64,000 bases of DNA from Dyella terrae. GTDB taxonomy: Bacteria; Pseudomonadota; Gammaproteobacteria; Xanthomonadales; Rhodanobacteraceae. This document shows positions 9,428-64,000 of the stretch, piece by piece. Within the stretch, counting starts at the first letter, position 1; every line of letters starts with the position of its first letter. The notes beneath the pieces are model-generated. The model saw nothing but the letters and a program-made list of their open reading frames with translations, searched no databases and was not told where the DNA came from. The position numbers were made by a program, and so were the translations under genes. Location of the stretch: the NCBI RefSeq assembly GCF_004322705.1, contig NZ_SIZZ01000001.1, positions 2,063,213 to 2,127,212 on the forward strand, given 5' to 3'.

Positions 9428-9444
9428 GTCACCGGAGCAAAACC

Positions 9445-10727: not shown

Positions 10728-10766
10728 CGACCACTGCGAATCATGAGGTCGCCGGGACACAAACAA

Positions 10767-10792
10767 AAACGCCGTCGCATGCGACGGCGTTT
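10767..10792. terminator. Bidirectional terminator between convergent genes
   Basis: AAACGCCGTCGC (10767-10778) pairs with GCGACGGCGTTT (10781-10792). An A-rich stretch on the left gives a T-rich tail for the minus-strand gene at 10818-11684, and short Ts follow on the plus side. Confidence 0.75.
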
Positions 10793-10817
10793 CAATGTTG
10801 GGGAGCACCGTTGAGGA

Positions 10818-11684: not shown

Positions 11685-11947
11685 GAGCGAGAACCGGGTT
11701 AATCCGTATGAGAGCCAGACACACCGCCCTCCCAGGGGTGTGGGTGTACAAACATTACCACGTTTTACTTTTTACTAACACCCATTCTGAGCACATTCCT
11801 AAAGCGAACCAGGCCACAGAATTCGAGCCATATCCGTCCCTTACCCCAACCTCTGGCCGATGCGATTTATGGTCACTCCCCGGCGACAAAGCTGAATAGA
11901 GGCGATATAAAGGCGCATCCCGATACCCATGGACCGGTCGACGCCGG

Positions 11948-43263: not shown

Positions 43264-44010
43264 ATGAAGATTCTTGTCGGCTACAAGCGCGTGGTGGACT
43301 ACAACGTCCGCATCCAGGTCAAACCCGATGGCACCGGCGTGGTGACCGATGGCGTCAAGCTTTCGGCCAACCCGTTCGACGATATCGCCCTCGAAGAGGC
43401 CCTGCGCCTGCGTGAGAAGGGTGTTGCCACCGAGGTCGTCGTGGTGGGCATCGGCCCGGCCGACCTGACCGCGCACCTGCGCAACGGCCTGGCCATGGGC
43501 GCCAACCGCGCCATCCATGTGGTCACTGCCGACGAAGTGCAGCCGCTCACGGCCGCCCGCACGCTTCTCAAGCTGGTTGAGAAGGAGCAGCCGGAGCTGG
43601 TCATCCTGGGCAAGCAGGCCATCGACGATGATGCCAACCAGACCGGCCAGATGCTGGCCGCGCTGTGGGACCGCCCGCAGGCCACGTTCGCCAGCAAGGT
43701 CGAGATCGCCGATGGCAAAGCCACGGTCACCCGCGAGGTGGACGCCGGCCTGGAAGTGATCGAGGCCGATCTCCCGGCGGTGCTCACGACCGACCTGCGC
43801 CTCAACGAGCCGCGCTTCATCAAGCTGCCGGACATCATGAAGGCCAAGGCCAAGCCGATCGACACCATCGAGTTCGGCTCGCTGGGCGTGGAAGCCCACG
43901 ACCACCTCAAGACCACCCATTTCGCCGCCCCCGCCAAGCGCAGCAAGGGCGTCATGGTGAAGGATGCCGCCGAGCTGGTCGCCGTCCTCAAGCAGAAGGG
44001 CCTGCTGTAA
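43264..44010 (+). CDS. etfB: Electron transfer flavoprotein beta subunit
   Basis: A 248-residue subunit that binds AMP and, with EtfA, carries electrons from acyl-CoA dehydrogenases to ETF-QO. KILVGYKRVVDYNVRI start, NPFDDIALEEALRLREKG, GKQAIDDDANQTGQMLAALW (nucleotide-binding loop) and TADLRLNEPR-type region (TTDLRLNEPRFIKLPDI) are diagnostic. It starts an etfBA operon with its own promoter and likely PsrA operator, 21 bases before etfA. Confidence 0.98.
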   Translation: MKILVGYKRVVDYNVRIQVKPDGTGVVTDGVKLSANPFDDIALEEALRLREKGVATEVVVVGIGPADLTAHLRNGLAMGANRAIHVVTADEVQPLTAARTLLKLVEKEQPELVILGKQAIDDDANQTGQMLAALWDRPQATFASKVEIADGKATVTREVDAGLEVIEADLPAVLTTDLRLNEPRFIKLPDIMKAKAKPIDTIEFGSLGVEAHDHLKTTHFAAPAKRSKGVMVKDAAELVAVLKQKGLL

Positions 44011-44031
44011 GCAGGTTGCCAGGAGACAGAC

Positions 44032-44976
44032 ATGAGCAAGATTCTCGTCATCGCCGAGCACCTCAACGGCAAGCTGAACCCCTCCACCGCCCGCGCCGTG
44101 AGCGCCGCCAACGCCGTCAAGGGCGATACCGTCGACGTGCTGGTGCTGGCCGATAGCGTCGACGCCATCGCTGCCGAGGCCGCGACGATCGAAGGCGTCA
44201 GCCGCGTCCTCACCATCGCCCGCGCTGAAAACGCCCATCCGCTGGCCGCCGTCCTGGCCCCGCAGATCGCCAAGGCCGCCGCCGGGTACTCCCACGTCTT
44301 CCTGCCGTCGACCACGTTCGGCAAGGACGTCGCCCCCCGCGTGGCCGCCCTGCTGGGCGTGTCCCAGGTCAGCGACGTCATGACCGTCGAAGGCGCACAC
44401 AGCTTCAAGCGCCCCATCTACGCCGGCAACGCGATCATCACCGTCGAGGCCAACCCGGCCCATGCGGTGGTCGCCACCATCCGCACGGCTTCGTGGCCGG
44501 CAGCCGCCAACGGCGCCAACAGCGCCCCCGTCGAGGCCCTGTCGGTGGACGCCGCCCTGCCCTCGCACACCCGCTTCGTCGAGCTGCAGCAGGGCAAGAG
44601 CGATCGCCCTGACCTTCAGAGCGCCAGCAAGGTGGTCTCCGGTGGCCGTGGCGTCGGCTCGAAGGAGAACTTCGAGATCATCTACAAGCTCGCCGACAAG
44701 ATCGGTGCGGCCGTGGGCGCCTCCCGCGCCGCGGTGGATGCCGGCTACGTACCGAACGAGCTGCAGGTGGGCCAGACCGGCAAGATCATCGCCCCCGAGC
44801 TGTACATGGCCTTCGGCATCTCCGGCGCCATCCAGCACCTGACCGGCATCAAGGACGCCGGCACCATTGTCGCCATCAACAAGGACGGCGAGGCCCCGAT
44901 TTTCGAGATCGCGGACATCGGCTTGGTGGGGGATCTGTTCAAGCTGATCCCGGAGATCGAGGCGGCTGTCGGTTAA
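44032..44976 (+). CDS. etfA: Electron transfer flavoprotein alpha subunit
   Basis: 314 residues; the FAD-binding subunit. N-terminal [16 protein letters not shown], then the C-terminal FAD domain with [50 protein letters not shown] and [25 protein letters not shown] precedes the ATG. It is the last gene of the etfBA pair and marks the left border of the O-antigen locus, as etfA does in Xanthomonas. Confidence 0.98.
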
Positions 44977-45032: not shown

Positions 45033-45122
45033 GCACGCATGATTCAGCCCGGCGTAATTTGCCGGGGTGAATCCATCGCGCTGAGACGAGCGGACCCCCG
45101 GCCGCAAGAAAGGCAGGGGAAA

Positions 45123-47047: not shown

Positions 47048-47836
47048 TCAGCCCAGCGTCGCCACCAGGTATTGACACCAGCGCGTCTTGAGCCAATAGG
47101 CAAACTGCAGCGCCACCCTGTCTCCCGCGTGCCTGGAGTACGCGAGTAGCTCATCTTCAAACAAGGGCATGGAGACAATGCCTGACGCATTGATATCGAA
47201 GCCAAGCTTTCGAAGCGTCGCCTCCAGCACTCCGCGATCAGGCAAGGGATCGCGATGCGTGTCATCGTCGAAGTAGTTCCCCGTGAGTCCGGAGAATCCC
47301 CACTCGGCCAGCAATTGATTGGAAGGCGAAGTTAGTGCGTACGCGGACGGCCACTCAATGTAGACCCGGCCGTTTTCACTGAGTTTCGAGGCCATCCAGG
47401 TAATAAAGGCAACGGGATCGGCGATGTGTTCGACGAAATGTGAACAGAAGATCGCATCGAAGGTGCGATCGGCAAAGGGCTTCTGGACATTCCAGTCGCT
47501 AAGTTCGTAACCGTCGTAGTCGTCGAAGTTCTGTCCCTTTTCCAGGGAGTAGGCGTATATCTTCAAGTCCTGTCGGGCGGGGCGAGGCCAACGCCTGAAG
47601 ATGCTCAGGGCACCGTCACCCGCTCCAACGTCCAGCACCGATGAACGGGCTTTGAGCGACTTCACGAAGAGGGTTCGAGGGTGCTGCCCGTGAAAGGTTT
47701 CGAGCAGCTCACCCCTTGGCAGAACGGTGGTGGCCGAGTGCGCTAACCATGCCTTCACCGCCAAAGGGTCGCTCTCGGAGCCCCCTTGGGGCGCCTTGTC
47801 AGGTGCTATGAGATCCTGATTTACAAGCTCGTCCAT
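47048..47836 (-). CDS. Class I SAM-dependent methyltransferase
   Basis: 262 residues with SAM motif I SSVLDVGAGDGALSIF and the post-motif FDAIFCSHFVEHIADP, as in type-11 methyltransferases of polysaccharide loci. The ATG at 47836 is preceded by GGAGG six bases away. The C-terminal part (RGVLEATLRKLGFDI onwards) is probably the acceptor domain. It lies downstream of the polytopic membrane protein on the same strand. Target unknown; sugar O-methylation is likely from context. Confidence 0.85.
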   Translation of the reverse strand: MDELVNQDLIAPDKAPQGGSESDPLAVKAWLAHSATTVLPRGELLETFHGQHPRTLFVKSLKARSSVLDVGAGDGALSIFRRWPRPARQDLKIYAYSLEKGQNFDDYDGYELSDWNVQKPFADRTFDAIFCSHFVEHIADPVAFITWMASKLSENGRVYIEWPSAYALTSPSNQLLAEWGFSGLTGNYFDDDTHRDPLPDRGVLEATLRKLGFDINASGIVSMPLFEDELLAYSRHAGDRVALQFAYWLKTRWCQYLVATLG

Positions 47837-47988
47837 CACCGCCTCCGAAGAAGTTGTCGGTCCATGGACCGACAGGCAAGGGCAATGGAACTTGCCACCT
47901 CTATGAACAACGGGTGGCAAATTCCTAAGGACTCAAGCTAACACATCAGGTGCGGCGGGATGATGCAAATGCGTGACAAAAGAGCGAC

Positions 47989-49920
47989 CTACTCCGCAGC
48001 TGAATCACTGGCTTCGCTGGAATGCAGGTCAATATCGCCAGCCGCCCTGACCGACTCGAGCAACACGGAACCCTTGGCGCCATCGTGCAGCGTTGCGTAG
48101 ACAGCGCCAATGGCGGAACCCGGCGGGGCCGCGGCAAACAGGGCGTGTTCGGTGAACTCAGGGGTAATGCTAACGACGACAATTTGCGCGCCCAGGAATT
48201 TGCCGGACGCGTCACTCCAGTTGATTTGCAGGCGCATGGGGACCTGATCCCCTTCGGTGGCCCGGGCACGGTAGATGAGCAAGCGCCCATCCACGCGCGC
48301 AGCCGCAACATTCATGAAATTGTCCGCGAGGCGGCTTAGCTTCACGCCTTCCGGGCCAACCATGGTCGGGTCGGACCACGCCCAGCCTTTCCACTCAGCA
48401 CCTTCGCCAAGGACATCGCCTTGAGCCGGAAACGGCTTCTCATTGAGGAGCAATTCGGCCATGGGCCGGCCCACCAATCGGTAGGAGGGATTGGTGCGAT
48501 CGATCGTGGTGGCTACGAGGCCAAAACTGTATCCGGCGAAAGGCTCTCCGCTGTATGAACGGGCCCGATGCAGGCAATTCTGTCCACCCAGATTGATACG
48601 ACAGAAAAGTGCGCCGTCGCCGCCCAATATCCACCCCGTATCTGGCTCGGGTACGCCGATCAGCACACCCTCACCTTGCGCCGGCCGAACATGACTGAAC
48701 GACTCTGCAAGCGATCGCGCGGTGCGGGAACCTGAAATGCTGGAGATAGTTGCGATCCCGCCAAAGCCCACGAAAGCGACCTGTTGGACCGCAAGCAGCA
48801 GCAACAACACGAGTCGCGCACGCGCCGGATAGGTCGCCACGACCAGCAGAAGCATCATCACGAAAGCGGGATACATCCAGCGCGCTTCTTGACGATCGGC
48901 GCCAGGCAGGCTGGCAATGCACACGAAACCGAGCAGTGTCGCCAGGAAAATCACTGGTGCGCGGGGACTGGCCAGCATCTTCTTGCGCTGAAAAATCCAC
49001 GGAGCGATCCAGCAGATGACGAAGGCAGCCACCAACAACCAGAAACGCTTCGAATGAACGAGCACTTCCTGATTGACGACCCCAACGAACCAGGGCGGAC
49101 CGTAATTCGTGCCCACGAAAAGATTACCCAGATACGTCAGGGCAACTTTGAATGTCTCCACGTTCAGCGTCACGACGCGACCCGTGGAGCCCATCGTGAT
49201 GGGGTTATCCGAAAGCAGCTTTACCATGCAGGCAAAGAGGCCCAGCGGCACAACGGCTATCAGGATCGCGAACAGCATGGGATGCGTCAGCTTCTTCTGC
49301 GTGAGCGCCTTCAGCTGAAATACCGCGACGGCACCCGCGAACCCGAGCACGCCAACCGCGTAGCGCTCATGGACGAAGACGCAGAGAAGGAAGAAGGCAA
49401 ACGCCGCTGCAAGCATGCGTGGACGCGGTTGACGCCCAGCTTCAAACAGATCCGAGCCGCAGTAGATGCCCGCCAGAAAGAGCGCGAGGCTGAGCGTCTC
49501 CACCGTGCCTGATACGTAATCCCAGTAAAGCATCACGTCGTAGCGCGAGCCAATGACCAGTGCCGCGACCAGCAGTGCAGTCAATCGACCTGTCGAGAAG
49601 CGCCGCACGCACAGCGCATAGGCCAGTGATGCGGAGGCCGCAATACACGCGGCATTGAACAGCATCGCAACCCATCGCGGCCAACTATCGCCAACAACGA
49701 ACGCCCAGAAGATGTTCATTACCAGACGGGGCTTATAGCTGTTCAATCCCTTATAGACGGATAGAACACCATTCCCCAGGCGCTCTCCGAAATTGAATGG
49801 CAGGAGTTCGTCGCCAAAGAAGTAGGGGTGATACGGCAGGAGTGAGACAACGAGAACGGCAAGGCCGATCAGGCAGACGTCTCGGAGGGCGACTTTCATG
49901 CCCTGGTGGTCAATATGCAT
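47989..49920 (-). CDS. Large polytopic membrane protein, possible GT-C-type glycosyltransferase
   Basis: 643 residues with about ten to twelve transmembrane helices in the first 420 residues and a soluble C-terminal domain (about 470-643) rich in beta strands. FFGDELLPFNFGER near residue 35 places acidic residues in the first periplasmic loop, the usual site of the catalytic acidic motif in GT-C enzymes. HERYAVGVLGF follows later. An O-antigen modifying or acyl/glycosyl transferase is plausible, but no named family is recognised. ATG 49899 is an alternative start. Confidence 0.65.
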   Translation of the reverse strand: MHIDHQGMKVALRDVCLIGLAVLVVSLLPYHPYFFGDELLPFNFGERLGNGVLSVYKGLNSYKPRLVMNIFWAFVVGDSWPRWVAMLFNAACIAASASLAYALCVRRFSTGRLTALLVAALVIGSRYDVMLYWDYVSGTVETLSLALFLAGIYCGSDLFEAGRQPRPRMLAAAFAFFLLCVFVHERYAVGVLGFAGAVAVFQLKALTQKKLTHPMLFAILIAVVPLGLFACMVKLLSDNPITMGSTGRVVTLNVETFKVALTYLGNLFVGTNYGPPWFVGVVNQEVLVHSKRFWLLVAAFVICWIAPWIFQRKKMLASPRAPVIFLATLLGFVCIASLPGADRQEARWMYPAFVMMLLLVVATYPARARLVLLLLLAVQQVAFVGFGGIATISSISGSRTARSLAESFSHVRPAQGEGVLIGVPEPDTGWILGGDGALFCRINLGGQNCLHRARSYSGEPFAGYSFGLVATTIDRTNPSYRLVGRPMAELLLNEKPFPAQGDVLGEGAEWKGWAWSDPTMVGPEGVKLSRLADNFMNVAAARVDGRLLIYRARATEGDQVPMRLQINWSDASGKFLGAQIVVVSITPEFTEHALFAAAPPGSAIGAVYATLHDGAKGSVLLESVRAAGDIDLHSSEASDSAAE

Positions 49921-50237: not shown

Positions 50238-51338
50238 TCAAGCCGATCTGATGCAGGTTGCCGGTCCAATGCCTCGCGAAAAACGGGGGTTGCTGCAGGA
50301 CGCCCCGCTCATAATGGCAACCATATGGGTGGGAGAAAGACGTCCGCTTTGGAACGCCTCCTCGTCGAATTGATGGATTCGATCGATGAAGCTTCGATCC
50401 CATTCGGCGTTCGCATCAAAATTATGACCAAATGCGCGATCGATGAACGGGTCGATGACATTGGCGAATCCGATGAACAGTCGCGGATGGAATCGTTCCA
50501 GCAACAAAGGAACAATGTCCTGCGCGCGAATCCCCTCAAACCCCTCGTTCGAGCAATCCCAATTTACATAAACCTTTTCCTGGCGCTTGAGCAGCCGGTT
50601 ATAGCGGTAAGCAAGGGGCAACTCGCTCCAGAATGCTGACACGGACTCATAGGCTTCAGGCCAGCGCATGTGACCGTTGCGGCCAATCATGTCGTGCATC
50701 ACCAGGTAACCGTCCGCTGGCAAAGCCTTGCGGAGTCCGTCAAACAGTCCTTCGAGGTTGAGGACATGATGCAGCGACTGGTTGGCCATGGCACCCGCAT
50801 AGGTCTTTTGGGGAGCCCACCGATTGAAATCACCCTCCACGAATGCCAGGTGTTCTGCGACACCTTCCTTTTCGGCAAGCGCCTTGCCCCGAGCCAACAT
50901 ATGCGGATTGATGTCCAGGCACTCGATGGTGAAGTCTTTCAGACCAGCCTGAACCATGAGTCTGGCGACGGCGACTTCCGTTTCGCAATTACCCACACCG
51001 ACGCTGATGAATACCGGATTATCGGCACTGACGCGTTCCGCACTTTCCAGCAGGGAACGCGCAAAAAACTGCTCGAAACTCGTTATCTCATACTCGTCGA
51101 GCATGGGTTTCAGATAACGATGCGACCAATAGTGGAAAATGTCCGGCAGGACATTGATGTTGACGACATCCTTGTAGATATCCGTCTCGCGCTGAAGCTT
51201 GCGACGATAATCATCGGAGGTATCTGCGTCTGGCAGTGCCAGTGCATGGTCGACGCGCATGGCGCGCTTGACGCGATATAGCAGCGAACTCATGAAATTC
51301 ATAAGTGACCCGAGCTGGTTTCGCAACCCGCCGATCAT
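50238..51338 (-). CDS. Class I SAM-dependent methyltransferase
   Basis: 366 residues; ATG 51338 is chosen over an in-frame TTG two codons earlier. SAM motif I is FISVGVGNCETEVAVA at about residue 110, followed by CLDINPHMLARG (acidic ribose contact) and YAGAMANQSLHHVLNLEGLF. An N-terminal extension of about 90 residues and a long C-terminal region (RYNRLLKRQEKVY, VIDPFIDRAFGHNF) set it apart from minimal methyltransferases. Last gene of the heptose/O-antigen operon, 68 bases after gmhB. Probably methylates a sugar of the O-chain. Confidence 0.85.
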   Translation of the reverse strand: MIGGLRNQLGSLMNFMSSLLYRVKRAMRVDHALALPDADTSDDYRRKLQRETDIYKDVVNINVLPDIFHYWSHRYLKPMLDEYEITSFEQFFARSLLESAERVSADNPVFISVGVGNCETEVAVARLMVQAGLKDFTIECLDINPHMLARGKALAEKEGVAEHLAFVEGDFNRWAPQKTYAGAMANQSLHHVLNLEGLFDGLRKALPADGYLVMHDMIGRNGHMRWPEAYESVSAFWSELPLAYRYNRLLKRQEKVYVNWDCSNEGFEGIRAQDIVPLLLERFHPRLFIGFANVIDPFIDRAFGHNFDANAEWDRSFIDRIHQFDEEAFQSGRLSPTHMVAIMSGASCSNPRFSRGIGPATCIRSA

Positions 51339-51405
51339 AGTCAAATAATCATGACTGAACCACTTCGCCGCAGTTCACGATTTTCTCACAGCTGGCGGAC
51401 GGGCC

Positions 51406-51966
51406 TCAGAGGCCTTCCACGAATTCCCGGAATGGCTCTGGCGACCGGTCGTCAATAAGCCAGGAACGTTCAATGCCAGCCGATGCCGCAGCCTGCAGGT
51501 CACTTGTTTGATCGCCCACGAGAAGCGACTGACCCAAGTCGATCTCCAGGTCCTTTCCTGCCGCGAGAATCATTCCCGGGCCAGGCTTGCGGCATTCGCA
51601 ACTCACATTCAGTCCAGGGACGATCCCTTCCGGATGATGTGGGCAGTAATAGGTCGCAAGAAGGTCGGCGCCATGGATTGCAAACTGCTCGTGTATCCAG
51701 CGAGTGAACTGGAGAAACTGGTCCTCGCTGTAATAGCCGCGCGCTATGCCCGCCTGGTTCGTAACGATCACCAGTCCGTAACCGGCGCGCTTCGCCGCGC
51801 GCGCGGCATCAAACACACCTGCCACCCAATCCGTTTGATCGGGCCGATGAACATAGCCGTGATTGATATTGACCACGCCATCGCGATCCAGAAACAGAAC
51901 TTTCCTCGCGGCGCCGCTGGCGGGCGGGGGCGGAGACGACCAGAACCGGCCAGGATGGGGTGTCAT
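51406..51966 (-). CDS. gmhB: D-glycero-D-manno-heptose 1,7-bisphosphate 7-phosphatase (HAD family)
   Basis: 186 residues. HAD motifs are VLFLDRDGVVNINHG (nucleophile and acid Asp), VTNQAGIARGY, and CRKPGPGMIL with VGDQTSDLQAA. The zinc site typical of GmhB is CPHHPEG and CECRKP. It removes the 7-phosphate to give heptose 1-phosphate, the step before nucleotidylation. ATGA overlap with hddC. In this operon it likely acts on the alpha-anomer for GDP-heptose synthesis, although a GmhB is also needed for LPS core ADP-heptose. Confidence 0.92.
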   Translation of the reverse strand: MTPHPGRFWSSPPPPASGAARKVLFLDRDGVVNINHGYVHRPDQTDWVAGVFDAARAAKRAGYGLVIVTNQAGIARGYYSEDQFLQFTRWIHEQFAIHGADLLATYYCPHHPEGIVPGLNVSCECRKPGPGMILAAGKDLEIDLGQSLLVGDQTSDLQAAASAGIERSWLIDDRSPEPFREFVEGL

Positions 51967-52679
51967 GCCCCGTTCTGCAGTGACTGAGAGAACATGCTTT
52001 GCGCGCGCTCAAAGTCTTCCGGAATGCCTATGTCGATGAACCGGGACGTTTGCGTAAATGCGCGGACCCGCCCCTTGGCGGCTGCAGGCACCAGAACATC
52101 CTGCTCGAACGAGAATGGGCCATGGGGAAATTCCGCCGATAGAGACGCCAGGTCGATATCGTACACGCCGGCATTGATCATGCCCGGCCCGTGGCCTCCC
52201 TTTTCGGAAAACCCGGTCACGCGATCACCGGACAACATCACGGCACCATACCGACCCACGTCGTCGACCGACGCCAGCGCCATGGTGATGGGCGAAGCCC
52301 CGCCGATCGCAAGTTGGCCTAAACGGGCATAGTCAAGCGCCAGATGCGTGTCGCCATTAAGCACGAACGCCCGCTTGCCTGAAACCGCCGACGCCGCCTT
52401 GGCGATGGCTCCCCCGGTGCCTAAGGGCTGCTCTTCACGGGAGTAGACAAGTTTCATGCCATGCCAGTCGCTTCCAAGCGTCGATTCCACGACGTCCGCC
52501 AGGTAACCCGTCGCAAGCACGGCCCGCCTGACCCCCTGGCCGGCGAGTTGATCCAGCAGCCAGGCCAGAAACGGCCGTCCGGCAACGGGTGCCAACGGCT
52601 TGGGAACATCCCTGACTACGCTTTGCAGGCGTGTGCCGAAACCACCGGCGAGGATGATGGCCTCGTCAGTGGCGAGCAT
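51963..52679 (-). CDS. hddC: D-glycero-alpha-D-manno-heptose 1-phosphate guanylyltransferase-like nucleotidyltransferase
   Basis: 238 residues. The nucleotidyltransferase signature IILAGGFGTRLQSVVRDVPKP is followed by PFLAWLLDQLAGQGV, and FVLNGDTHLALD carries the metal Asp. The family includes glucose-1-phosphate thymidylyl- and mannose-1-phosphate guanylyltransferases. Assignment to HddC rests on the neighbours hddA, gmhA and gmhB. Expected product: GDP-D-glycero-alpha-D-manno-heptose. Its ATG lies inside the end of gmhA (14-base overlap). Confidence 0.85.
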   Translation of the reverse strand: MLATDEAIILAGGFGTRLQSVVRDVPKPLAPVAGRPFLAWLLDQLAGQGVRRAVLATGYLADVVESTLGSDWHGMKLVYSREEQPLGTGGAIAKAASAVSGKRAFVLNGDTHLALDYARLGQLAIGGASPITMALASVDDVGRYGAVMLSGDRVTGFSEKGGHGPGMINAGVYDIDLASLSAEFPHGPFSFEQDVLVPAAAKGRVRAFTQTSRFIDIGIPEDFERAQSMFSQSLQNGA

Positions 52680-53265
52680 CGCCAAACATTTCCTGTTCGA
52701 TCAACGCGCAAAGCAGGTGGCCAAGTGCCTCATGGCCTTCCTGGATACGGGGTGTCTCCGTGGAAGGAATGCGAAAACAGATGTCGCATGCCGATGCCAT
52801 CGCACCACCTGACTGGCCGGTGAATCCAATGACCTTGATACCCTTTGCGCGAGCAGCGTCAATGGCACGAATGATGTTCTTTGAGTTACCGGAGGTCGAG
52901 ATGGCGTAGAAGACATCACCCTCCGCGCCGAGCGCTTCGATCTGGCGCGCGAATACGTAGTCGTAGCCGTAGTCGTTGCCAACCGCGGTAATGATGCTGG
53001 TATCCGTCGTCAACGCGATGCCCGGCAAACCCGGCCGATCGAAGTAAAACCGACTGACCAGCTCTCCTGCCCAGTGCTGCGCGTCAGCCGCGCTGCCACC
53101 ATTGCCGGCGAAGAGTATTTTCTTACCGCTCTTGAGCGCGGAAACCGAAATTTCGAGCGCCTGCTGCACCTGGTCGTGCAGGCCCGTGTCGTTACGCATC
53201 GTCGTGAGCAATGCGATGGACTTGCTGAATTCCGACTCAAGCATGGACGTCACATGATTCGCCAC
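52666..53265 (-). CDS. gmhA: Sedoheptulose-7-phosphate isomerase (SIS domain)
   Basis: 199 residues. The SIS fold has KILFAGNGGSAADAQHWAGE, FYAISTSGNSKNIIRAIDAA and ITAVGNDYGYDYVF, characteristic of GmhA, which converts sedoheptulose 7-phosphate to D-glycero-D-manno-heptose 7-phosphate. QEGHEALGHLLCALIE near the end holds the catalytic-type Glu/His residues. A GTG at 53265 (overlapping hddA) is taken; ATG 53244 is an alternative but would trim the first helix. Confidence 0.93.
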   Translation of the reverse strand: MANHVTSMLESEFSKSIALLTTMRNDTGLHDQVQQALEISVSALKSGKKILFAGNGGSAADAQHWAGELVSRFYFDRPGLPGIALTTDTSIITAVGNDYGYDYVFARQIEALGAEGDVFYAISTSGNSKNIIRAIDAARAKGIKVIGFTGQSGGAMASACDICFRIPSTETPRIQEGHEALGHLLCALIEQEMFGDARH

Positions 53266-54278
53266 GAGGTCGCTCCTTGCTGCGTGAAATGAAAATCAAG
53301 CAGTCGACCGCCCTGTTCGGCGAGTGCTCTGGTCAACCCGACGCGCTTGTCGGGGCTGCACATGAACATCATGAATCCGCCACCGCCAGCGCCCGAGACC
53401 TTGGCCGCGTATGCACCATTGGCAAAGGCCACGCGCTCGACCTCTTCGATCAACGGGTTGCTGATCGACGTGGCCATGTTCTTCTTTGCTTCCCAGCCAG
53501 CCTGCAAAGTGCGGGCAAGCCCCTGAATGTCTCCCCGAAGAACGCATTCCTTCATTTGCACGGCCTCCTGCTTGAGGCTGTGCATGGCGTCGATGGACGC
53601 CTGATTGCCCTGAACGACGTTACGCGACTGCTGGTCGATAATGTCGGACGATGCGCGCGACACGCCGGTGAAGTAAAGCACCAGTGATGCTTCCAGCTCG
53701 GACCAGACCCAGTCTTTCACACGCAATGGGTTCACAATGACGCGATCGTCCTTGTAGAACTCCATGAAGTTGAAGCCACCGAACGTCGCGGCGTACTGAT
53801 CCTGCTTGCCGCCTGCGAGCTGAAGATCCTTGCGCTCGATGTTGTAGGCAAGATGCGCGACCTCGTACTCGCCCAGAGGGAGCATGAAGTACTCGGCGAA
53901 GGCCTGAACAAGCGCGACTACCATCGTGGACGACGAACCGAGACCGGAGCCAGGAGGCGCGTCAGAAAACGTCTGGACGCGCAATGGCCGGTGCTCACCG
54001 CCCAGAAACTCCTTGCAGATGCGCGAATAGACGCCCTTTAGCAGCTGCAGCGGACCGTTCGAAGCGAACTCCTGATGACAGGCATAGGACTCGCTGACAC
54101 CCACGTCCATGGCCGCGAACTCACACTTGCCGTCCGGTGAATCCGAAATGATGGCAAATGCATGCTTGTCGATGGTCACGTTCATCACATGACCACCGAA
54201 GACATCGCAATAAGGCGACACATCGGTGCCACCGCCGGCCAGGCCTAGTCGCAACGGCGCTCGCGATCGAACGATCAT
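53250..54278 (-). CDS. hddA: D-glycero-alpha-D-manno-heptose 7-phosphate kinase (GHMP family)
   Basis: 342 residues. [19 protein letters not shown] is the GHMP N-terminal motif; the ATP loop is [17 protein letters not shown]; the C-terminal motif [12 protein letters not shown] closes the active site. HddA phosphorylates C1 in the alpha configuration, which commits the sugar to GDP-heptose rather than to ADP-heptose made by HldE. ATGA overlap with the large methyltransferase/glycosyltransferase gene upstream. Confidence 0.92.
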
Positions 54279-57200
54279 GCCGCCGTCTCCAGGCGAAACA
54301 CCTCCGCGAGCGCCTTTCGCATGCTGCCCGACGAGAAGTGAGCTTCGGCGTAGCGACTGCCGCCGGCCGACATCAGGCGCCAGGCATCGCCACTGGTCAG
54401 CAGCTCAACCAGCGCATCGGCCATGGCATCTTCATCGTCGACGACTCGCGCCACGCGCTCCACGCCTGGCAAACCCTGGGCGCCGACTGACGTCGTGACC
54501 AGGGGAACCCCCTGCTGCAACGCCTCCACCACCTTGGACTTGATGCCTGCGCCGAAGCGAAGCGGCACCACCGCTACGCGGCTCTTGCTATAGAAGTCGC
54601 GCAGGACATCGTCTTCAACAAAGCCCGTTACGACCACCCTGCCGTGCGCCAGTGCTTCCACGCGTGGCGTAGGGTTGGAGCCGACCAGGTAAAGCCGGGC
54701 ATCAGGCACCCGCGCCTGCACCTTTGGGAAGATCGACTCAGCCAACCAAACGGCCGCATCTTCATTCGGCGGATGTCCGAATCCAGCCACGAAGAGAATG
54801 TCCGAGCGCTGCTCAGGCGGGCGGTTTCCGCTACCAAACGCCTCGTAGCAATAGGCCTGGATCGCGCGTGCCTTGACTGCGGGAGCGAGCTTGCCAACCT
54901 CGGTGATTTCATCCGGCGACGGATATAGCACCATGTCACTCTTCTGCCACAGCGCCAGCTCCATCGACTTGAAGCGGTTCGCTTCGTCGAGGTACTCCTG
55001 GTTGCCGGACAGCTCGAAGCGCTGCTGCGCGCGCGCGAAATGGAGATCGTGCCCGTAGTAAACGACACGCGCGTTCGGCGCGTGTTTGCGGATCGCATCG
55101 ATGAATTGCACGGAGATATGGGGGCGGCTAAGCAACACGCGATCGATGTTGCCATTGGCTTCCTGAAGATAGCGTTCGAATCCGCCCACCCATTCGTGCC
55201 CGTAGATCACCTCGACGCCCATTTCCTGCAGGCGCGGCGTGTAGTGCGGATCGCGCCAGAGGTTCTCGGGCCAAAACTTGACCGAGCAACCAAGTGCGCA
55301 GAGCTGGCGGATGAACTGCATCATGGTCCGCGAGCCCGCATCGCGGTCCGGCTGGGGAACGTAGTGATCCACCACCAGCACGACAGGCTTATGGCGAGAA
55401 CGCTCGCGTGCGCGAAAGACGTTCTGCGCATTGGGATACTGCTCGGACTCGAGCACCGCCTTCCAGCGCGCAAAGAACTTTTTTTGGTTCTCTACCTGAT
55501 ACGCCTTGATGCCACTGGTCTCGTCCGTTCCGTGCGAGATGCCTTCATAGTGCACAACGGTCGAGAATGGCGTGTAGTAGAGCTTCAGCCCCGCTTGGCG
55601 CACCTTGAATGCAAGATCGGAGTCCTCGCAGTACGCCGGCACATAATGCTCATCGAAACGCCCCAGGCGATCGAAGAGCGTCGACTTGATCAATAGTGAT
55701 GCGCCGGAACAGTAGTCCACTTCGTGCACATAGTTGAAACGCGATTCCTCCGGATCGGCCAGCCGACCGAAATTCCATCCGGATGCGTCATTCCAGATGA
55801 TCCCGCCCGCTTCCTGCAGGCGACCGTCGGGATACACCAGCCTGGAACCAACCATGCCGCAATCGTCGAAACGCTCAAAGACCTCGAGCATGGCGTCGAG
55901 CCACCCTTCGGTCACGCGCGTATCGTTATTGAGAAAATAGATGTACTCGCCGCGCGCTAGCGTCGACGCGCGATTGCAGGAGCGAATGAAGCCAAGGTTT
56001 TCCGGATTCACTTCGTAACGAAGGCCGGGAACATCCGCCAGGAGGTGGATCTCTTCGTCGCCCGAGACATCTTCCACTACCAGCACTTCGAATTCACAGC
56101 TGGGTTTGTGCTGCAAAATCGAGCGCAGGCAGGCAGCGGTGAAGTCCAGCCTGCCATAGGCCGGGATGATGATACTGACCTTTGGATCAGTGAACACCGG
56201 GAATGCAAGCTGGGCAACGATGTCACGCGGCGACTCATCGCTCGGCGCGTCCAGCCTGGGTGCGGGCGCCGTGGTCTTGAGAAGATGCTTCCTGACCAGC
56301 TTGCGCACAGGTGCAAGCGCCGGCGAACGAGCCAGTGGGATGTGCTTGACCGAATCGACGGCACCGCTCCAGTCGCCACGGAAGACGCGTCCCATGAGGC
56401 GAAGCGGCCGGGTCATTTTCCACGAGCGCGACGCGATCAACTGATCGTTGAGGGCGCGCAGGTGGCGCGACTCCTCCATCAATGCATTGATGCGTTCGCG
56501 TGCGTGATTTTCGTACAGCTCGAGTTTGTCGATGGAGGCACGCTGGCTATCGGCGCGTGCTTCCACGGCATTCAGGCGCTCCCGAAGAATCAGGTTCTCG
56601 AGGCGAAACTCACCAATTTCCGACATGAGCGAATCATGTCGCGCCATCAGGCTGGTGTTGGTTTCGACACTCTCCTGCAGATAGGTCTCGCCAAGCAGGT
56701 TGACACCGAGCCTATCGAGCTTCCGCTCGACTTCCTTAGCCCACAACTCCACGTCCTTGCGCCCCTGCTCAAGCTCTGCGACATTCCTGAGTGTAGCCTG
56801 TATTTCATTGTGCGCAAGATTGAGGCGCTCATCGCGCTCCAGCAGCTTGACACTCAGGTCGGAGATCTGCGCCAGCGCGGAACGGAACTCGCGCTCGTAT
56901 TCGCCGCAGCGCGCCTGGAGCTCGGCAATGTCGCTGGTCTGGGTTGCGACGAGGTGATTGGCGGATTCGTGCGCCTCACTCAGCGAGTTGAAACGCAACT
57001 GCCATGATTCGAGATCATGCTTGCCGGTTTGAACCTGGCGCTCCCACTGGTCGCGCTCAACGGTGATCTTCCTGGCGTGAATATGGGCTTCCGACAATTC
57101 ACGTTCGAGGTGCACCAGCTTTTCGGCGAGCTCGCGTGTGTCATCCATGTGTCGCGAACTGAGCTGGTTCAACTCGCCGAGCCTGGACAAGGCCGAGCGC

Positions 57201-58294
57201 ACCATGGTCTCGACACCCGACAGCACCGGCGACAGATCGTCAGCAACGGATGACACGCCGGAGATGCCCTGTTGCTTGCCTTCATCCAGCAACACGGCCA
57301 GGCGAGACGTCATCTTGTCGTGCTTATCGCGCAGGTCGGCCAACAGTCGCTCGTCCTCATCCAGCAATCCGGACAGCTCCTGCTCATGCTTGAGCACTCC
57401 GGTATGGAATCCGCGGAGCTTTTGAAGATCACCATCGAGTCCAAGCGCCCACTTGGCAGTCTTCTCGTGCTCCTGCACGAGGTTGCCGTACTTGGTGCGA
57501 ACCTCGCTGAGCTCCTTGTCGATGCGTTGCGCCCACTTCGCAATGTCGTGGTGATGGTTGTAGAGATCTTCGGCCTCGGAAAAAAACACCGAAGGCTGGA
57601 GCCTGGGCAAATCGACCTGCTCGCCCGCCGCAATGGCGACGTAGTACACGGGATCGATCAGGCGGACCGATCGCTCAACGACATCGGTACCCGTGTCGGT
57701 AAAGGCCTCCATGGCCTGCTCGGTATCTTCGAGTGCCATGGGCGCGACGGCTGAACCCACCGCCAGGCGCTGGCCGTAATAACGAACGCGCGGGAAGACC
57801 GAGCGCAGCAACGCATCCAGTTCGGCGAGATCGAGTTCCTTGACGTGAAATTCGTTGTGGTGACCGGCCTTGTCAGAATAGACCGGTCGATTCGGCGATG
57901 AGATGACCAGTACGCCATCGGGGCGAAGGACGCGCCGAATTTCCGAAATCATTTCCTCATGGCGATCGTGGTGCTCGATCGTCTCGAACGACACCACGAG
58001 ATCCACGCTGTTGTCTTCCAGCGGGATGCGCGCCGCGTCACCCTGGCGGAACGAGAGATTGGAGGCACCCCGGTATGCATTCGTGGCGTGATCGACGGCC
58101 TCTTGGGCGATATCCACGCCAGTGACCGAACCGGCAACGGTGGCAAGCATCGCGCTGCCATAGCCTTCGCCGCATGCGATATCAAGGACCTGTTTGCCCC
58201 GCGCCAGCTCCCTGCACCAGGCATAGCGATGCAGGTGTTCGTGGCGGATTTCCCCCGCCTCGGTGGGAATGAATCGTTCGCCGGTGAACTCCAT
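54275..58294 (-). CDS. 1339-residue methyltransferase-coiled coil-GT2-GT4 protein, predicted O-antigen polymerising/capping enzyme
   Basis: Domains in order: SAM-dependent methyltransferase (about 1-235; [31 protein letters not shown]); a long heptad-rich coiled coil (about 250-620); GT2 (about 700-950; [36 protein letters not shown]); GT4 (about 966-1335; [31 protein letters not shown]). ATG 58294 has GGAGG seven bases upstream and starts two bases after the wzt stop. WbdD of E. coli O9a uses a methyltransferase/kinase and a coiled-coil ruler to cap chains exported by Wzm/Wzt; this protein adds two glycosyltransferases. No kinase domain is seen. The GT half is paralogous to the gene at 41071-43152. 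Confidence 0.88.
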
Positions 58295-58296
58295 CG

Positions 58297-59730
58297 TCAA
58301 ACCTCCACCTGACGCAGATCGATGGACAGCATCGGGATGCCCACCAGGCCATATCGCATGGTGCTCTCGCTGGCCCGGAAGGAGAGAGCGTCGTGAATCC
58401 AGTGCTGGTGCGTGTGGTCAATCTGCGTTCCGCTGGCAAGCGCCACGTCGATTGAGTACTCACCCGTCGGGAGAATGGGCATGCGAAAGTGGAAGGACGC
58501 ACGCACGCGCGCGCCGGCCCCTGGCATCAGCGGCTTGTCCACATACGACACAAAGGTGTTGTCACCAAACAGGCGCTGCCCAAGACGGTCTTTCACGTAG
58601 AACCCGAAAATGGGGCCTTCGATGGGCTCACGAATCCGGGCGTCGATCGAAAGCTCCACCAGCTCGCCACCCAGCACGATCTGGGCACTCTCGCCCGTCG
58701 CTCCGGCAAGCTTGACGTCGACGATTTCCGCCGCGCCCGCCCCGAACGACGAACCCACCTGATCCGGATCAAACTCAAAGAATTCGACGATATTGCGGGC
58801 ACCCCGGCCATGCAGCTCCGCCAGGCGCCCGTCCATGACATCATCGGGATGGGCATCCGTAGCCGGCATCGCGAGCGGCGCGGGGGCAGCGTCCGCCGAC
58901 TCGGCTGCACGAGCCGAGGTCGCCCTGGGTTTTTCCACCGAAATGGATTGCCCGATACTTGCCCGGTCCGCGGCGTGCTGGGCCGCAAGATACGACTCCA
59001 CGACGTCGCGAGTGATTCCGTCCATCACCATTTCACCACGATCCAGCCAGACGGCACGATCACAAAGATTGGTGACGGCACCTGTATCGTGACTGACGAA
59101 AAGCAGCGTGCCGCGCTTTTGGAACTCGCGCAGATATCGCATGCACTTTTGCGTGAACCGGATATCACCGACGCTGAGCGCCTCGTCGATCACCAGCGTG
59201 TCGGCATCCACATGCGCGGCGATGGAAAACGCGAGGCGCACGTACATGCCGCTGGAGTAGGTCTTCACCGGCTGCTTGATGAAGTCGCCGATATCGGCGA
59301 ACGCCAGGATGGAATCGAAACGCTTGCGCAGCTCGACTTCCGGGATACCGTACAGCAAGCCGCTCAGGTAGACGTTTTCCTCGCCCGTGAACTCGGGATT
59401 GAAACCCGCACCCAGCTCCAGCAGCGCGGCGATGCGGCCGAATGTCTTTACCTCGCCTTCGGTAGGGTGCAACGTGCCGCAGATCATCTGCAGCAACGTG
59501 GACTTGCCGGAACCGTTGCGACCGATGATGCCCACGGTCTCGCCACGACGAACGCTGAAACTCACGTTGCGCAGCGCCCAGAATTCCTTGTGGTATCGCA
59601 GGTCGTGACGACCCACGGCGCGACCAAGACGCGGCAGGATCATCTGCTTGAGGCGATCGACCGGCTGGGCATAAATGTCGTACTTCTTGCCCAGCGAATC
59701 GACGGAAATGATGAGTTCGTCAGAGGACAT
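58297..59730 (-). CDS. wzt: O-antigen ABC exporter ATP-binding protein with C-terminal carbohydrate-binding domain
   Basis: 477 residues. The ATPase (about 1-250) has Walker [32 protein letters not shown], signature [13 protein letters not shown], and Walker [14 protein letters not shown] with the SHD H-loop. A linker follows, then a beta-sandwich domain (about 320-477, with [16 protein letters not shown] and [17 protein letters not shown]), as in Wzt proteins that recognise capped O-chains. ATG 59730 overlaps the wzm stop by 11 bases; an upstream start at 59757 is less likely. Confidence 0.95.
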
Positions 59731-60544
59731 CGGCGAACCCCTTGCGCGTGCGTTCAAACCATCCGAAAGAAAGCCAGGCGAACAGCACGGCAGCCAGCGT
59801 ATAGGCGCCCAGCATGCCCCAATCGGGCATGCGTCCCCAGATCAGGACGTCGCGCGTCGATTCGACGATCGCCGTCAGCGGATTGAGATAAAGCAGCTTC
59901 CTGTAGTGCTCCGGGATCATTTCCTTTGAGTAGAAAATGGGCGCGAGGAACATCAGCATGATCGTGATGATGGTGATGGCGTGCTTGAGATCGCGCAGGA
60001 ACACGCCAAGCGACGACAGGAACCATACCAGCCCCGCCATGAAAGGCAGGAAGACGAGCACCACGATCGGAAACAGCACCACGGTCCACGGCAGCGTTCC
60101 ACGCACGACCAGCGCGAATATCAGCAGGACGATTGTTGAGATCAGCAAATGGAACAGCGCCGATCCGATGGTCGTCCAGGACAACGTTTCCAGCGGGAAC
60201 ACGATCTTCTTGACGAAATTGCGGTTCTCCAGGATCAGCGTCGGCGCGCGGTTGGCGCACTCCTGGAAAAACGTGTTGATATTGAGACCGGCGAACAGGA
60301 TCACCGCGAACTCAAACTGACCGCCACCCTGCCCGGCCCAACGCGATTTGAAGACGTAGCCAAAGACGAACGTGTATACGCTCAACATCAAAAGCGGATT
60401 GAAGAACGACCACAGCAGGCCGATGAATGAACCGCGATAGCGGCCAATGACATCGCGCTTGGCCATCTGCACCACCAGGTGAAAATGGCGCAGGAGGGCC
60501 CGATAGGGCGACAGGGGATCAGCTAGCCTGTACTTCGAAATCAT
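59720..60544 (-). CDS. wzm: O-antigen ABC exporter permease
   Basis: A 274-residue ABC-2-type permease with six transmembrane helices. The amphipathic N-terminus with LVVQMAKRDVIGRYRGSFIGLLWSF and the C-terminal [12 protein letters not shown] coupling end are typical of Wzm/KpsM-like exporters. It moves undecaprenyl-linked polysaccharide to the periplasm. It is the first gene of the minus-strand export/heptose operon and overlaps wzt. The 96-base space upstream to the metB stop holds its presumed promoter, but no clear -35/-10 pair is seen. Confidence 0.96.
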   Translation of the reverse strand: MISKYRLADPLSPYRALLRHFHLVVQMAKRDVIGRYRGSFIGLLWSFFNPLLMLSVYTFVFGYVFKSRWAGQGGGQFEFAVILFAGLNINTFFQECANRAPTLILENRNFVKKIVFPLETLSWTTIGSALFHLLISTIVLLIFALVVRGTLPWTVVLFPIVVLVFLPFMAGLVWFLSSLGVFLRDLKHAITIITIMLMFLAPIFYSKEMIPEHYRKLLYLNPLTAIVESTRDVLIWGRMPDWGMLGAYTLAAVLFAWLSFGWFERTRKGFADVL

Positions 60545-60640: not shown

Positions 60641-61819
60641 TCAGCGCAGTGCAGCATCGAGTTCATGCCGCAAGTCGTCGATGTCTTCCACGCCGACCGA
60701 AAGACGGATGAGCGAGTCACTGATGCCCAGGCGCTTTCGATTGGCCGGCGGGACCGAAGCGTGCGTCATGATGGCCGGATGCTCGATGAGGCTTTCGACC
60801 CCGCCGAGCGATTCAGCGAGTGCAAACAGTTCGCAGCGCTCGAGGACACGGCGGGCCTTGCGCAGACCGCCCTTCACCTCGACGCTGATGATGCCGCCGA
60901 AGCCATCCATCTGACGGCGCGCCAGGGCGTGCTGCGGATGGCTCTTGAGTCCGGGATAGATCACCCGATCAATGGCCGGGTGCTTCTCCAGCCACTGGGC
61001 AAGGATCAGCGCGCTCTCGCAGTGAGCCTTCATGCGCAGGTGCAGGGTCTTGAGGCCCCGCATGGCCAGGAAAGCATCGAAGGGTCCCCCCACGGCGCCC
61101 ACCGAGTTCTGCAGGAAAGCCATCTGCTCAGCCAGGGCCTGTTCGCGAGCCACGACGATGCCGCCGACCATGTCGGAATGGCCGTTGAGGTACTTCGTTG
61201 CCGAATGCAGGACCAGATCCGCGCCGCTCTCGAAGGGGCGCTGGATCATGGGCGAACAGAAGGTGTTGTCTACCACCAGGATCAATCCGTGCTTGCGTGC
61301 AAAATCGGCGATCTTGCGCAGATCTACCAGCTTCAGCATCGGATTGGTGGGGGTTTCGGCCCAGATCATGCGCGTATTGGGCTTGAGTGCGGCTTTGACT
61401 GCAGCAAGGTCGTTCAGATCGACGAAGCTGAAATCCAGGCCGGCTGAGCGGCGACGCACGCGCTCGAACAAGCGATACGTGCCGCCATAGAGATCGTCCA
61501 TGGCGATGACGTGGCTGCCACTGTCGAGCAGATCCAGCACCGTGGCGGCCGCTGCCAGCCCCGAGCCGAAGGCGAAGCCCGCTACGCCACCCTCAAGCGC
61601 CGCCACGCAGCGCTCATAGGCCATGCGCGTCGGATTTTGCGTGCGCGAATATTCGTAGCCCTTGTGAACGCCCGGGCTCTCTTGCACGTACGTGGACGTG
61701 GCGTAAATCGGGGTCATGATGGCCCCGGTCGATGGGTCGGGCTGCTGCCCGGCATGAATGGCGAGCGTGCCCAGACCGAGCTCGCGCTGCCCCTGAACCT
61801 TCTTCTTCGATGTAGCCAT
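60641..61819 (-). CDS. metB: Cystathionine gamma-synthase/lyase (PLP-dependent trans-sulfuration enzyme)
   Basis: 392 residues. PLP-lysine motif SATKYLNGHSDMVGG, YEYSRTQNPTRMAYE near the N-terminus, DNTFCSPMIQRP and the C-terminal SLGGVESLIEHPAIMTHASVP are diagnostic of the Cys/Met-metabolism PLP family. Gamma-synthase and gamma-lyase are not separable by eye. The position at the right border of the O-antigen locus matches metB in Xanthomonas. ATG 61819 is preferred to a longer frame from 61849. No met box is visible upstream despite a MetJ homologue in the window. Confidence 0.9.
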   Translation of the reverse strand: MATSKKKVQGQRELGLGTLAIHAGQQPDPSTGAIMTPIYATSTYVQESPGVHKGYEYSRTQNPTRMAYERCVAALEGGVAGFAFGSGLAAAATVLDLLDSGSHVIAMDDLYGGTYRLFERVRRRSAGLDFSFVDLNDLAAVKAALKPNTRMIWAETPTNPMLKLVDLRKIADFARKHGLILVVDNTFCSPMIQRPFESGADLVLHSATKYLNGHSDMVGGIVVAREQALAEQMAFLQNSVGAVGGPFDAFLAMRGLKTLHLRMKAHCESALILAQWLEKHPAIDRVIYPGLKSHPQHALARRQMDGFGGIISVEVKGGLRKARRVLERCELFALAESLGGVESLIEHPAIMTHASVPPANRKRLGISDSLIRLSVGVEDIDDLRHELDAALR

Positions 61820-62071
61820 ACGTAGCGAAACCTGCTCCACCCGGATCAATCGCGCATCTTACCTGCCCTGGCAGGCCCTACCGTTTCAACGATGGCTTTT
61901 GTTCATTTTCGCGCACGCCACCAACAACCCACGTGAAGTGGGCGTTCGAGAGGACATCCGCGGCGTCATCTTGCGTCAAACAAATGTTGTATTTGCGTGA
62001 AGACTGCCAACCCGCGCTCAAATGGCGCGTTGTTATGTAGCGATGACAAAACCCTTCGCTAAGCTTACGAA

Positions 62072-62872: not shown

Positions 62873-63093
62873 GGTTCGCGTCCTGCTGGTTGCCCATCCG
62901 TCGGCCGTGGCTGGCCGTTAAGTGAATTTCATCTTCACGCCGCCCATCCGTCAGCATGATCTGCACCAAGCCTGACCGTAACGCCCTGCGCGGCGCACTC
63001 GAGCTTGGTTTGTTCTGGCCTTAACAGGCATCATTGAAGAAATGCGCTGCCATCCATCGCGACGCACTCCCCCTTGAAATACGGACCCATTTC

Positions 63094-64000
63094 ATGAGCG
63101 ACACTTCCCGCGGACCCGCGACAATTCTGGTAACCGGAGGTGCGGGTTTCATCGGCGCCAACTTCGTACTCGGCGCATTGGCGCGTGGGCAGAAGGTCGT
63201 CAATCTCGACAAGCTCACGTACGCCGGCAACCTCGACACCCTGACTTCGGTCAAAGAGAACCCGCACCACGTCTTCGTGCAGGGCGACATCGGCGACCGG
63301 ACCCTGGTAGCACGGCTGTTGGCAGAGCACCACCCTGCAGCCATCGTCAACTTCGCGGCGGAGTCCCATGTCGACCGCTCGATCGACGGCCCGGCTGCAT
63401 TCGTGGAAACCAACGTCGTCGGCACCCTGGGCCTGCTCGAGTGCGCCCGCGATTACTGGCGCGCCCTGGCCCCGGCGCAAGCTGAGGCGTTCCGCTTCCT
63501 GCATGTGTCGACGGATGAGGTCTACGGCTCCCTCGGTGCCGACGGCAAGTTCACCGAAACGACCGCTTACGCCCCCAACTCGCCGTACTCGGCGTCGAAG
63601 GCGGCATCCGACCACCTGGTTCGTGCGTTCCATCACACTTATGGACTTCCGACGCTCACGACGAACTGCTCGAACAACTACGGGCCGTATCAGTTCCCGG
63701 AAAAATTGATCCCTCTGGTCATCCAGAAGGCACTCGCCGGTGAGCCTTTGCCGGTCTATGGCGATGGCCTGAACATTCGCGACTGGTTGTTCGTCGGCGA
63801 TCACTGCAGCGCCATTGCGCGCGTGCTTGAAGCCGGTACCGTGGGCGAGACCTACAACGTCGGCGGCAACGCCGAGCGGGAGAACATCACCGTGGTGAAA
63901 ACCATCTGCGCCCTGCTCGACCAGCGTCGCCCCCTGGCGGATGGTCGTAAGCGCGAGTCGCTGATCACCTACGTCAAGGATCGCCCGGGGCACGATCGCC
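63094..64000 (+). CDS. rfbB: dTDP-glucose 4,6-dehydratase (3' truncated by window edge)
   Basis: 302 of roughly 350 residues are present. The NAD Rossmann motif is [15 protein letters not shown], then [23 protein letters not shown], the catalytic STDEVYGSL and the YSASK (YxxxK) motif, and [17 protein letters not shown]. RfbB makes dTDP-4-keto-6-deoxyglucose, the second step of dTDP-L-rhamnose synthesis. ATG 63094 is the family start. The remaining rhamnose genes (rfbA, rfbC, rfbD) probably follow outside the window. Confidence 0.96.

Follow-up and report, generated by a model that had tools for sequence, protein, structure and literature searches.

Terminator, coiled coil and polymerase are combined in a single protein in two Klebsiella systems, WbbB of serotype O12 and ORF6 of serotype O7, and the ruler role of the coil is described as established for O9 and O12; in O7 ORF6, a cryptic kinase was revealed by AlphaFold (PMC11231755). 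In Escherichia coli, serotype O8 carries a methyl-only cap (PMC3482155), and in O9a the coil of WbdD keeps caps about 20 nm away from the polymerase, with altered coil lengths shifting the length of the chain (PMC5082667). A methyltransferase (MT) and two glycosyltransferases (GTs) are joined in WsaE (PMC2943079). The present analysis concerns a related protein encoded in a 64,000-nucleotide stretch of Dyella terrae DNA (the window; contig NZ_SIZZ01000001.1 of assembly GCF_004322705.1, positions 2,063,213 to 2,127,212), in which an N-terminal MT, a long coiled coil, a GT2 module and a GT4 module follow each other in one frame next to wzt. It is probably a single-protein polymerase-terminator for an O-polysaccharide exported by an ATP-binding cassette transporter, in which the coil would act as a ruler and the C-terminal domain of Wzt (Wzt_C) would read a methyl cap.

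On the minus strand, positions 54275-58300 form a frame of 1339 aa when translation starts at the ATG at 58294, or of 1341 aa with a TTG start; the plus-strand reading of the same interval is interrupted by stops. With the TTG start, the frame and wzt share 4 bases, whereas the ATG leaves a gap of 2 bases between them; the frame also shares 4 bases with hddA. Pfam recognized the MT (PF08241, aa 37-131, E 6e-25), the GT2 (PF00535, aa 707-854, E 2.1e-20) and the GT4 (PF13692, aa 1165-1300, E 2.5e-25). An AlphaFold model of aa 1-720, built on a 22-row alignment (mean predicted local distance difference test score, pLDDT, 75.7; predicted template modelling score, pTM, 0.43), has the MT fold at aa 15-223, with a pLDDT above 85 in most blocks. 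Helices follow at aa 244-342, 347-529 and 536-621 (99 + 183 + 86 = 368 residues), at moderate confidence (block means 56-80), and then shorter ones at aa 623-674; no kinase-like or other extra globular domain beyond the MT was seen in this model. The preliminary description of this DNA, made from its letters, had reported four modules in one 1339-residue frame, no kinase and an adjoining wzt with a C-terminal binding domain, all of which was borne out.

Residues E107 and H108 of the MT are invariant across the 22 aligned sequences, and its fold neighbours include RebM and AtmM, the latter labelled a D-glucose O-methyltransferase. The MT is also related in sequence to that of E. coli O9a WbdD, matching 4azs by phmmer (E 5.6e-5 over aa 27-124), but numerous other MTs score higher, so that this match is not specific. 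In a scan of the hydrophobic moment, the top four of 470 windows begin at aa 626-629. The GT2-GT4 part is predicted by AlphaFold2 with a pLDDT of 93.4 and a pTM of 0.91, and its fold neighbours include GDP-mannose-bound PimB' (template modelling score 0.77 by target length), sucrose-phosphate synthase and GalNAc transferases; as these are mixed, the fold does not settle the donor sugar.

Relatives were collected by a contig scan with the polymerase alignment. The best 80 of at least 583 relatives were kept and, together with 13 proteins from the window and related genomes, yielded 93 proteins that were classed by their N-terminal module, hereafter the cap. Classes were assigned by BLAST to reference caps, because all-against-all BLAST clustering joined unrelated caps through their coils. 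They comprise MT (27 proteins), sulfotransferase-like (15), uncapped (14), an unnamed type represented by L106 (11), GT4 (6), two classes with an MT plus a second domain (5 and 4), DUF4915 (3) and unclassified (3), with one each of GT2, another MT family (PF13578), a pyruvyltransferase (L101), a further GT4 (L104) and a protein with pyruvyltransferase and ferredoxin-like domains (L124). The uncapped class includes L093, which is cut at a contig start and may have a cap, and L120, which has no polymerase alignment. Two copies (L042, of L054, and L046, of L083) were removed before counts were made, leaving 26 MT-coil-GT2-GT4 proteins, among them some from Lysobacterales, Burkholderiales, Alphaproteobacteria and Bacillota. 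Pfam confirmed MT, GT2 and GT4 in the window protein and three MT relatives, and the MT alone in three more. The linkers of these 26 proteins have 90-408 residues (397 in the window protein). Coil-less homologues with an unchanged O-chain length had been named in the preliminary description as evidence to the contrary, and this objection holds only in part: homologues with little or no coil do occur, and they are the uncapped ones. An example is the GT2-GT4 paralogue without cap or coil at 41071-43152 (+), just beyond etfB, which is 39% identical to aa 672-1329.

The sulfotransferase-like label derives from PF13469 scores of 24.8, 24.3 and 20.7 bits in three proteins, under the Pfam cut-off of 27; PF13469 was not listed by Pfam in L070 and L088, and for the remaining members the label comes from BLAST alone. 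In the MT-plus-second-domain classes, the second domain had no Pfam or PDB sequence match in the proteins scanned, and could be kinase-like by analogy with O7 ORF6 only. As judged from sequence, MT, MT plus second domain, sulfotransferase-like, DUF4915 and pyruvyltransferase modules appear to be exchangeable on one GT2-GT4 tail. A DUF4915-type domain stands in the cap position of L066, L076 and L100 (by Pfam in L066 and L100, by BLAST in L076), which have their own Wzt_C class; no mention of DUF4915 turned up in the literature searched. L106, L122, L128, L129, L130 and six more loci harbor an N-terminal or second domain of about 300 residues in or beside the cap position, which had no Pfam match in L106, the sole protein of this class scanned alone. 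The six GT4-coil-GT2-GT4 proteins (L047-L052; 1441-1566 aa) come from family- and order-level relatives; no wzt or heptose genes were found within the DNA fetched around them, and they were excluded from the comparison of caps with Wzt_C.

In Proteobacteria, cap class tracks Wzt_C class and not the polymerase tree. The comparison covered 48 loci with a same-strand upstream Wzt of at least 360 aa, loci without one being dropped. Among the 29 proteobacterial loci, Wzt_C similarity was 0.433 for same-cap pairs versus 0.074 for different-cap pairs, and polymerase similarity was 0.539 versus 0.530; after regression on the nucleotide-binding domain (NBD) of Wzt and on the polymerase, label permutation gave a p of 0.0002, related loci being treated as exchangeable. 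When nearest neighbours were taken by Wzt_C, 39 of 44 loci had one with the same cap; by NBD the number was 36, and by polymerase 26. Trees were built by one quick method (LG+G4), and their permutations likewise treat related loci as exchangeable. At least 12 cap changes are required on the polymerase tree of the 29 loci (shuffled-label mean 11.5), and 5 on the Wzt_C tree (minimum 4; shuffled mean 11.4); with Bacillota-type loci included (43 in total), the changes number 13 for the polymerase, 6 for Wzt_C and 7 for the NBD.

Matching also extends to Wzt proteins encoded apart from the cap gene. In several sulfotransferase-like loci, wzt does not adjoin the cap gene. Both non-adjacent Wzt proteins found for sulfotransferase-like-capped loci (2/2; G028 and L070) are of the matching class, their C-domains being 52-56% identical to the L088/L072 class and 40-43% to L058, with weak matches only outside the class. 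In G028, about 24 kb separate wzt from a cap gene of the same orientation, and wzm stands in this interval in the reverse orientation; in L070, the distance is 5.6 kb and the two genes have opposite orientations. Such matching at a distance argues against adjacency alone as the cause. In L084, L072 and L088, where wzt is 2.4-3.8 kb upstream, the Wzt_C class still matches. A search of the DNA fetched for eight other sulfotransferase-like loci found no wzt. At L074, a sulfotransferase-like-capped version (7303-8466 and 8444-11986) directly adjoins a metB-like frame, and wzm-wzt are missing there. L081 encodes two Wzt proteins, at 4599-5975 (-) and 7347-8795 (+), both closest to MT-class C-domains.

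Two pairs of close relatives differ in their caps. L063 (Pseudoxanthomonas taiwanensis, MT) and L064 (Pseudoxanthomonas sp. J31, MT plus domain) share 98.5% DNA identity over the 10.6 kb that begin where the coil ends, a stretch that holds the polymerase and heptose genes, and 86% until wzm begins. The block in between, made up of wzm, wzt, cap and coil, is diverged or cannot be aligned. In Stenotrophomonas, the break between L083 and L089 takes in the cap and the first part of the coil, with a PF08241 MT in one and a PF13578 MT in the other, and Wzt_C is retained (0.79).

Over aa 244-621 of the window protein, a hydrophobic periodicity of 3.5 residues was detected (z 7.6; reached by 0 of 1000 shuffles), and heptad periodicity is strong in segments 1 and 2. 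If straight, 378 residues at 0.1485 nm each would form a rod of about 56 nm. Linkers were analysed in 58 capped proteins (26 MT, 15 sulfotransferase-like, 3 DUF4915, 4 + 4 MT-plus-domain and 6 GT4), and within these classes all 58 have at least 85 residues. They contain 72 tryptophan pairs spaced by 28 residues, versus a shuffled mean of 3.4 (maximum 9 in 200 shuffles), and identity at lag 28 is 0.203 versus a mean of 0.091 for lags 4-63. The underlying repeat corresponds to four heptads and starts with W-A-Q-x-L-D; nothing on a 28-residue repeat in such coils turned up in the literature searched. A 28-spaced pair is present in 16/26 MT, 11/15 sulfotransferase-like and 3/3 DUF4915 proteins, in 1/4 and 0/4 of the two MT-plus-domain classes and in 0/6 GT4 proteins; the window protein has a single one, W254 and W282, within segment 1. 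Coil length varies between relatives: L062 and L065 from Paraburkholderia differ by a single clean 39-residue gap within the coil (about 5.8 nm in a straight rod), and the window protein and that of G004, which are 78% identical in the MT and 74% in the GT part, have linkers that differ in length by 218 residues. Given both differences, a strict 28-residue quantisation of ruler length is not supported.

The gene downstream is a homologue of hddA, which belongs to the GDP-D,D-heptose pathway. Among 55 capped loci, 35 have such a homologue within 6 kb of downstream DNA, at least 40% identical in 25 of them, versus 1 of 13 uncapped loci (27% identity). Excluded from this count were 9 of the 80 loci because less than 3 kb followed, and 3 that were unclassified, of which 2 have hddA. 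Both rmlA and rmlB are present in the fetched DNA of 11/40 loci with hddA and hddC, of 3/26 others and of 0/14 uncapped loci, the first two groups containing the 3 unclassified loci. No HldD above the TIGR02197 cut-off was found in 37 genomes, the window genome included; weaker epimerase-like matches occur in all 37, and the control of this HldD search exceeded the cut-off in only 2 of 14. This 0/37 makes it unlikely that the heptose set serves an ordinary ADP-heptose core. Gene content thus suggests a chain that contains D,D-heptose, possibly with rhamnose.

In the mechanism that we propose, the GT2-GT4 end would sit at the membrane via its amphipathic helix and elongate a chain carried on undecaprenyl, with GDP-bound D-glycero-D-manno-heptose as the probable donor and dTDP-bound rhamnose as a possible further one. 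With the MT held by the coil at a distance of up to about 55 nm, only chains long enough to reach it would be O-methylated at their non-reducing end; methylation would halt elongation, and Wzt_C would bind the methylated end and admit the chain to export. The cap module would be swappable, with the matching Wzt reader changing along with it. All biochemical steps, methyl capping, ruler action and heptose use included, are ones that we infer; terminal O-methylation is plausible, as is a chain length that scales with the coil. The 'self-contained' machine of the preliminary description exceeds the data: the genes for donor synthesis stand apart from it, and no initiation or adaptor enzymes were identified here.

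Several observations weigh against this mechanism. The rod has two breaks in the AlphaFold model, and the periodicity of segment 3 alone is not significant (178/1000 shuffles as high); the coiled coil of about 370 residues first described thus stands as to its helical residues but not as one uniform coil, and the 55 nm given for a continuous helix holds for a straight rod only. These features, the wide differences in linker length among close relatives and the methylation by WsaE in vitro, which was independent of chain length (PMC2943079), would fit an MT that caps and licenses export on a helical region acting only as a tether or scaffold, with chain length depending on the stoichiometry of the complex, the supply of donors or the rate of export. 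This is nevertheless rather unlikely in view of the effect of coil length in O9a (PMC5082667), the ruler role established in O9 and O12 (PMC11231755) and the minimum linker length kept by all capped proteins measured. Two more MT-like proteins are encoded in the locus, at 47048-47920 and 50238-51344 (-), and terminal methylation could be theirs, the fused MT modifying internal repeat residues and Wzt reading something else. We regard this as improbable: the MT occupies the terminator position of known systems (PMC11231755), the Wzt_C class follows MT versus non-MT caps, and L089, despite its other MT family, keeps an MT-class Wzt_C. A WbdD-type MT-kinase whose kinase has diverged too far for sequence searches has the precedent of O7 ORF6 (PMC11231755), but is scarcely credible here, as the first long helix is predicted to start about 20 residues past the MT fold, which would leave no room for a kinase; the AlphaFold2 model contradicts a cryptic one behind the MT.

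The link between cap and Wzt_C also has its exceptions and a competing explanation. The nearest Wzt_C neighbour is of another class in 5 of 44 loci (L073, L090, L118, L127 and L045, the last nearest to L089). Among the 29 loci, the NBD is more similar in same-cap than in different-cap pairs as well (0.690 versus 0.546), and its tree also requires only 5 cap changes (shuffled mean 11.5); since the ATPase domain follows the cap nearly as well as Wzt_C, shared inheritance of wzm, wzt and cap explains part of the pattern. That it explains the whole, the three having moved as one DNA block without Wzt reading the cap, would agree with the block-wise difference between L063 and L064, and the distant wzt genes all remain in the same chromosomal region as their caps. 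Such an account is, however, doubtful given the matching Wzt_C of G028 and L070, that of L084, L072 and L088, and the Wzt_C kept by L083 and L089 across different caps. As to the heptose, a downstream hddA homologue is absent from 20 of 55 capped loci, a warning that donors vary, and 10 of the 35 matches are below 40% identity.

On the hypothesis that the heptose-linked GT2-GT4 polymerase is a chassis onto which caps (methyl, methyl plus second domain, sulfate, pyruvate or a DUF4915 reaction) are plugged via a rod of 28-residue repeats, with the Wzt binding domain as the matching reader code, we remain slightly more doubtful than convinced. If it is true, cap chemistry can be predicted from the Wzt_C class, and sulfate and DUF4915 caps would act as terminators of kinds that did not turn up in the literature searched; no sulfate terminator appeared in the titles and abstract openings from that search, which does not show that none exists. 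Independently of this hypothesis, the present proteins extend the terminator-ruler-polymerase principle of Klebsiella and E. coli to a family in Proteobacteria and Bacillota with at least 6 kinds of N-terminal modules on one polymerase. The natural cap exchanges in Pseudoxanthomonas and Stenotrophomonas and the 39-residue coil variants in Paraburkholderia allow it to be tested without engineering whether Wzt reads only the cap and whether the coil sets chain length, respectively.

Xanthomonads have a highly variable lipopolysaccharide (LPS) locus flanked by etfA and metB; in the strains described, wzm and wzt are its first genes when counted from metB (PMC2238763, PMC2585010). The gene studied here lies between etfB-etfA and a metB-type gene, and Table 1 presents these and the other features of the window. 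Beyond it lie rmlA and rmlD (by Pfam) and rmlC-like and manC-like frames (recognized solely from where they lie and how their translations begin). A sulfotransferase (PF13469, E 2.2e-28) at 45039-46466 (+) adjoins etfA and might sulfate the same glycan, and a 643-aa protein at 47989-49920 (-), apparently a membrane protein, matched nothing in Pfam or NCBIfam at E 0.01.

Table 1. Features of the Dyella terrae window, with positions counted from its first nucleotide.
Feature	Position	Strand	Basis
MT - coiled coil - GT2 - GT4 protein, 1339 aa	54275..58300	-	Pfam, AlphaFold
Class I S-adenosylmethionine-dependent methyltransferase (MT), aa 15-223	57626..58252	-	Pfam, AlphaFold, alignment
Helical segment 1, aa 244-342	57269..57565	-	AlphaFold
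Helical segment 2, aa 347-529	56708..57256	-	AlphaFold
Helical segment 3, aa 536-621	56432..56689	-	AlphaFold
Cationic amphipathic helix, about aa 623-640, putative membrane contact	56375..56428	-	AlphaFold, hydrophobic moment
GT2 module, about aa 705-944	55463..56182	-	Pfam, AlphaFold
GT4 module, about aa 971-1332	54299..55384	-	Pfam, AlphaFold
wzt, ATPase of O-antigen exporter	58297..59757	-	Pfam
Wzt_C domain (PF14524), MT class, E 1.7e-33	58339..58749	-	Pfam, sequence comparison
wzm, exporter permease	59720..60544	-	One match in genome at E <= 0.001
hddA, D-glycero-D-manno-heptose 7-phosphate kinase	53250..54278	-	Best NCBIfam match, under its cut-off
gmhA, sedoheptulose 7-phosphate isomerase	52666..53265	-	Best NCBIfam matches, under cut-off
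hddC, heptose 1-phosphate guanylyltransferase	51963..52685	-	Best NCBIfam match, under its cut-off
gmhB, heptose bisphosphate phosphatase	51406..51966	-	Above NCBIfam cut-off
metB-type pyridoxal phosphate enzyme (PF01053), one LPS-locus border	60641..61849	-	Pfam
etfB-etfA, opposite LPS-locus border	43264..44976	+	Pfam
rmlB start	63034..64000	+	Pfam; continues beyond window

Compared with the described systems, the Dyella protein is like Klebsiella pneumoniae O7 ORF6 in its N-terminal MT, central coil, two C-terminal GT modules and wzm/wzt, with the terminator at the far end of the coil. Whereas O7 ORF6 has a kinase and a domain resembling a carbohydrate-binding module (CBM) between MT and coil, two GT2 modules and a methyl-phosphate cap, the Dyella protein has the MT alone, a GT2 plus a GT4, and adjacent heptose genes (PMC11231755). 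With O12 WbbB it shares terminator, coil and two polymerase GTs as a single polypeptide, and the CBM of Wzt reads the terminus there; the WbbB cap, however, is a beta-Kdo from a glycosyltransferase (GT99), not a methyl group (per PMC11231755). E. coli O9a WbdD and its O8 homologue likewise carry an MT terminator on a coiled-coil ruler, and the O8 methyl comes without phosphate (PMC3482155, PMC5082667). Unlike the Dyella protein, which has no domain between aa 223 and the helix from 244 and keeps GT2-GT4 in the same frame, WbdD lacks GT modules (WbdA is separate), and in O9a it has a kinase and a ruler of about 20 nm. Geobacillus stearothermophilus WsaE resembles the Dyella protein by architecture alone, with an MT and two GT domains next to wzm/wzt; it makes a 2-O-methyl cap, serves an S-layer rhamnan, and has no coiled coil described in the text consulted (PMC2943079). 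With O12 WbbB, O7 ORF6 and WsaE as precedents, the fused arrangement is not unprecedented, and methyl capping does not require a kinase, as O8 shows; in both respects the preliminary description was overstated. The window protein has the four features of the WbbB/O7 ORF6 kind, i.e. an N-terminal terminator-type domain, a coil, C-terminal GTs and a Wzm/Wzt with a binding domain, and its overall plan is already known in outline from O12 WbbB, O7 ORF6 and E. coli O8. According to the literature searched, what is new is the family of MT-coil-GT2-GT4 proteins, the link of this family with heptose, its exchangeable caps, to which Wzt_C is matched, and the repeat of 28 residues.

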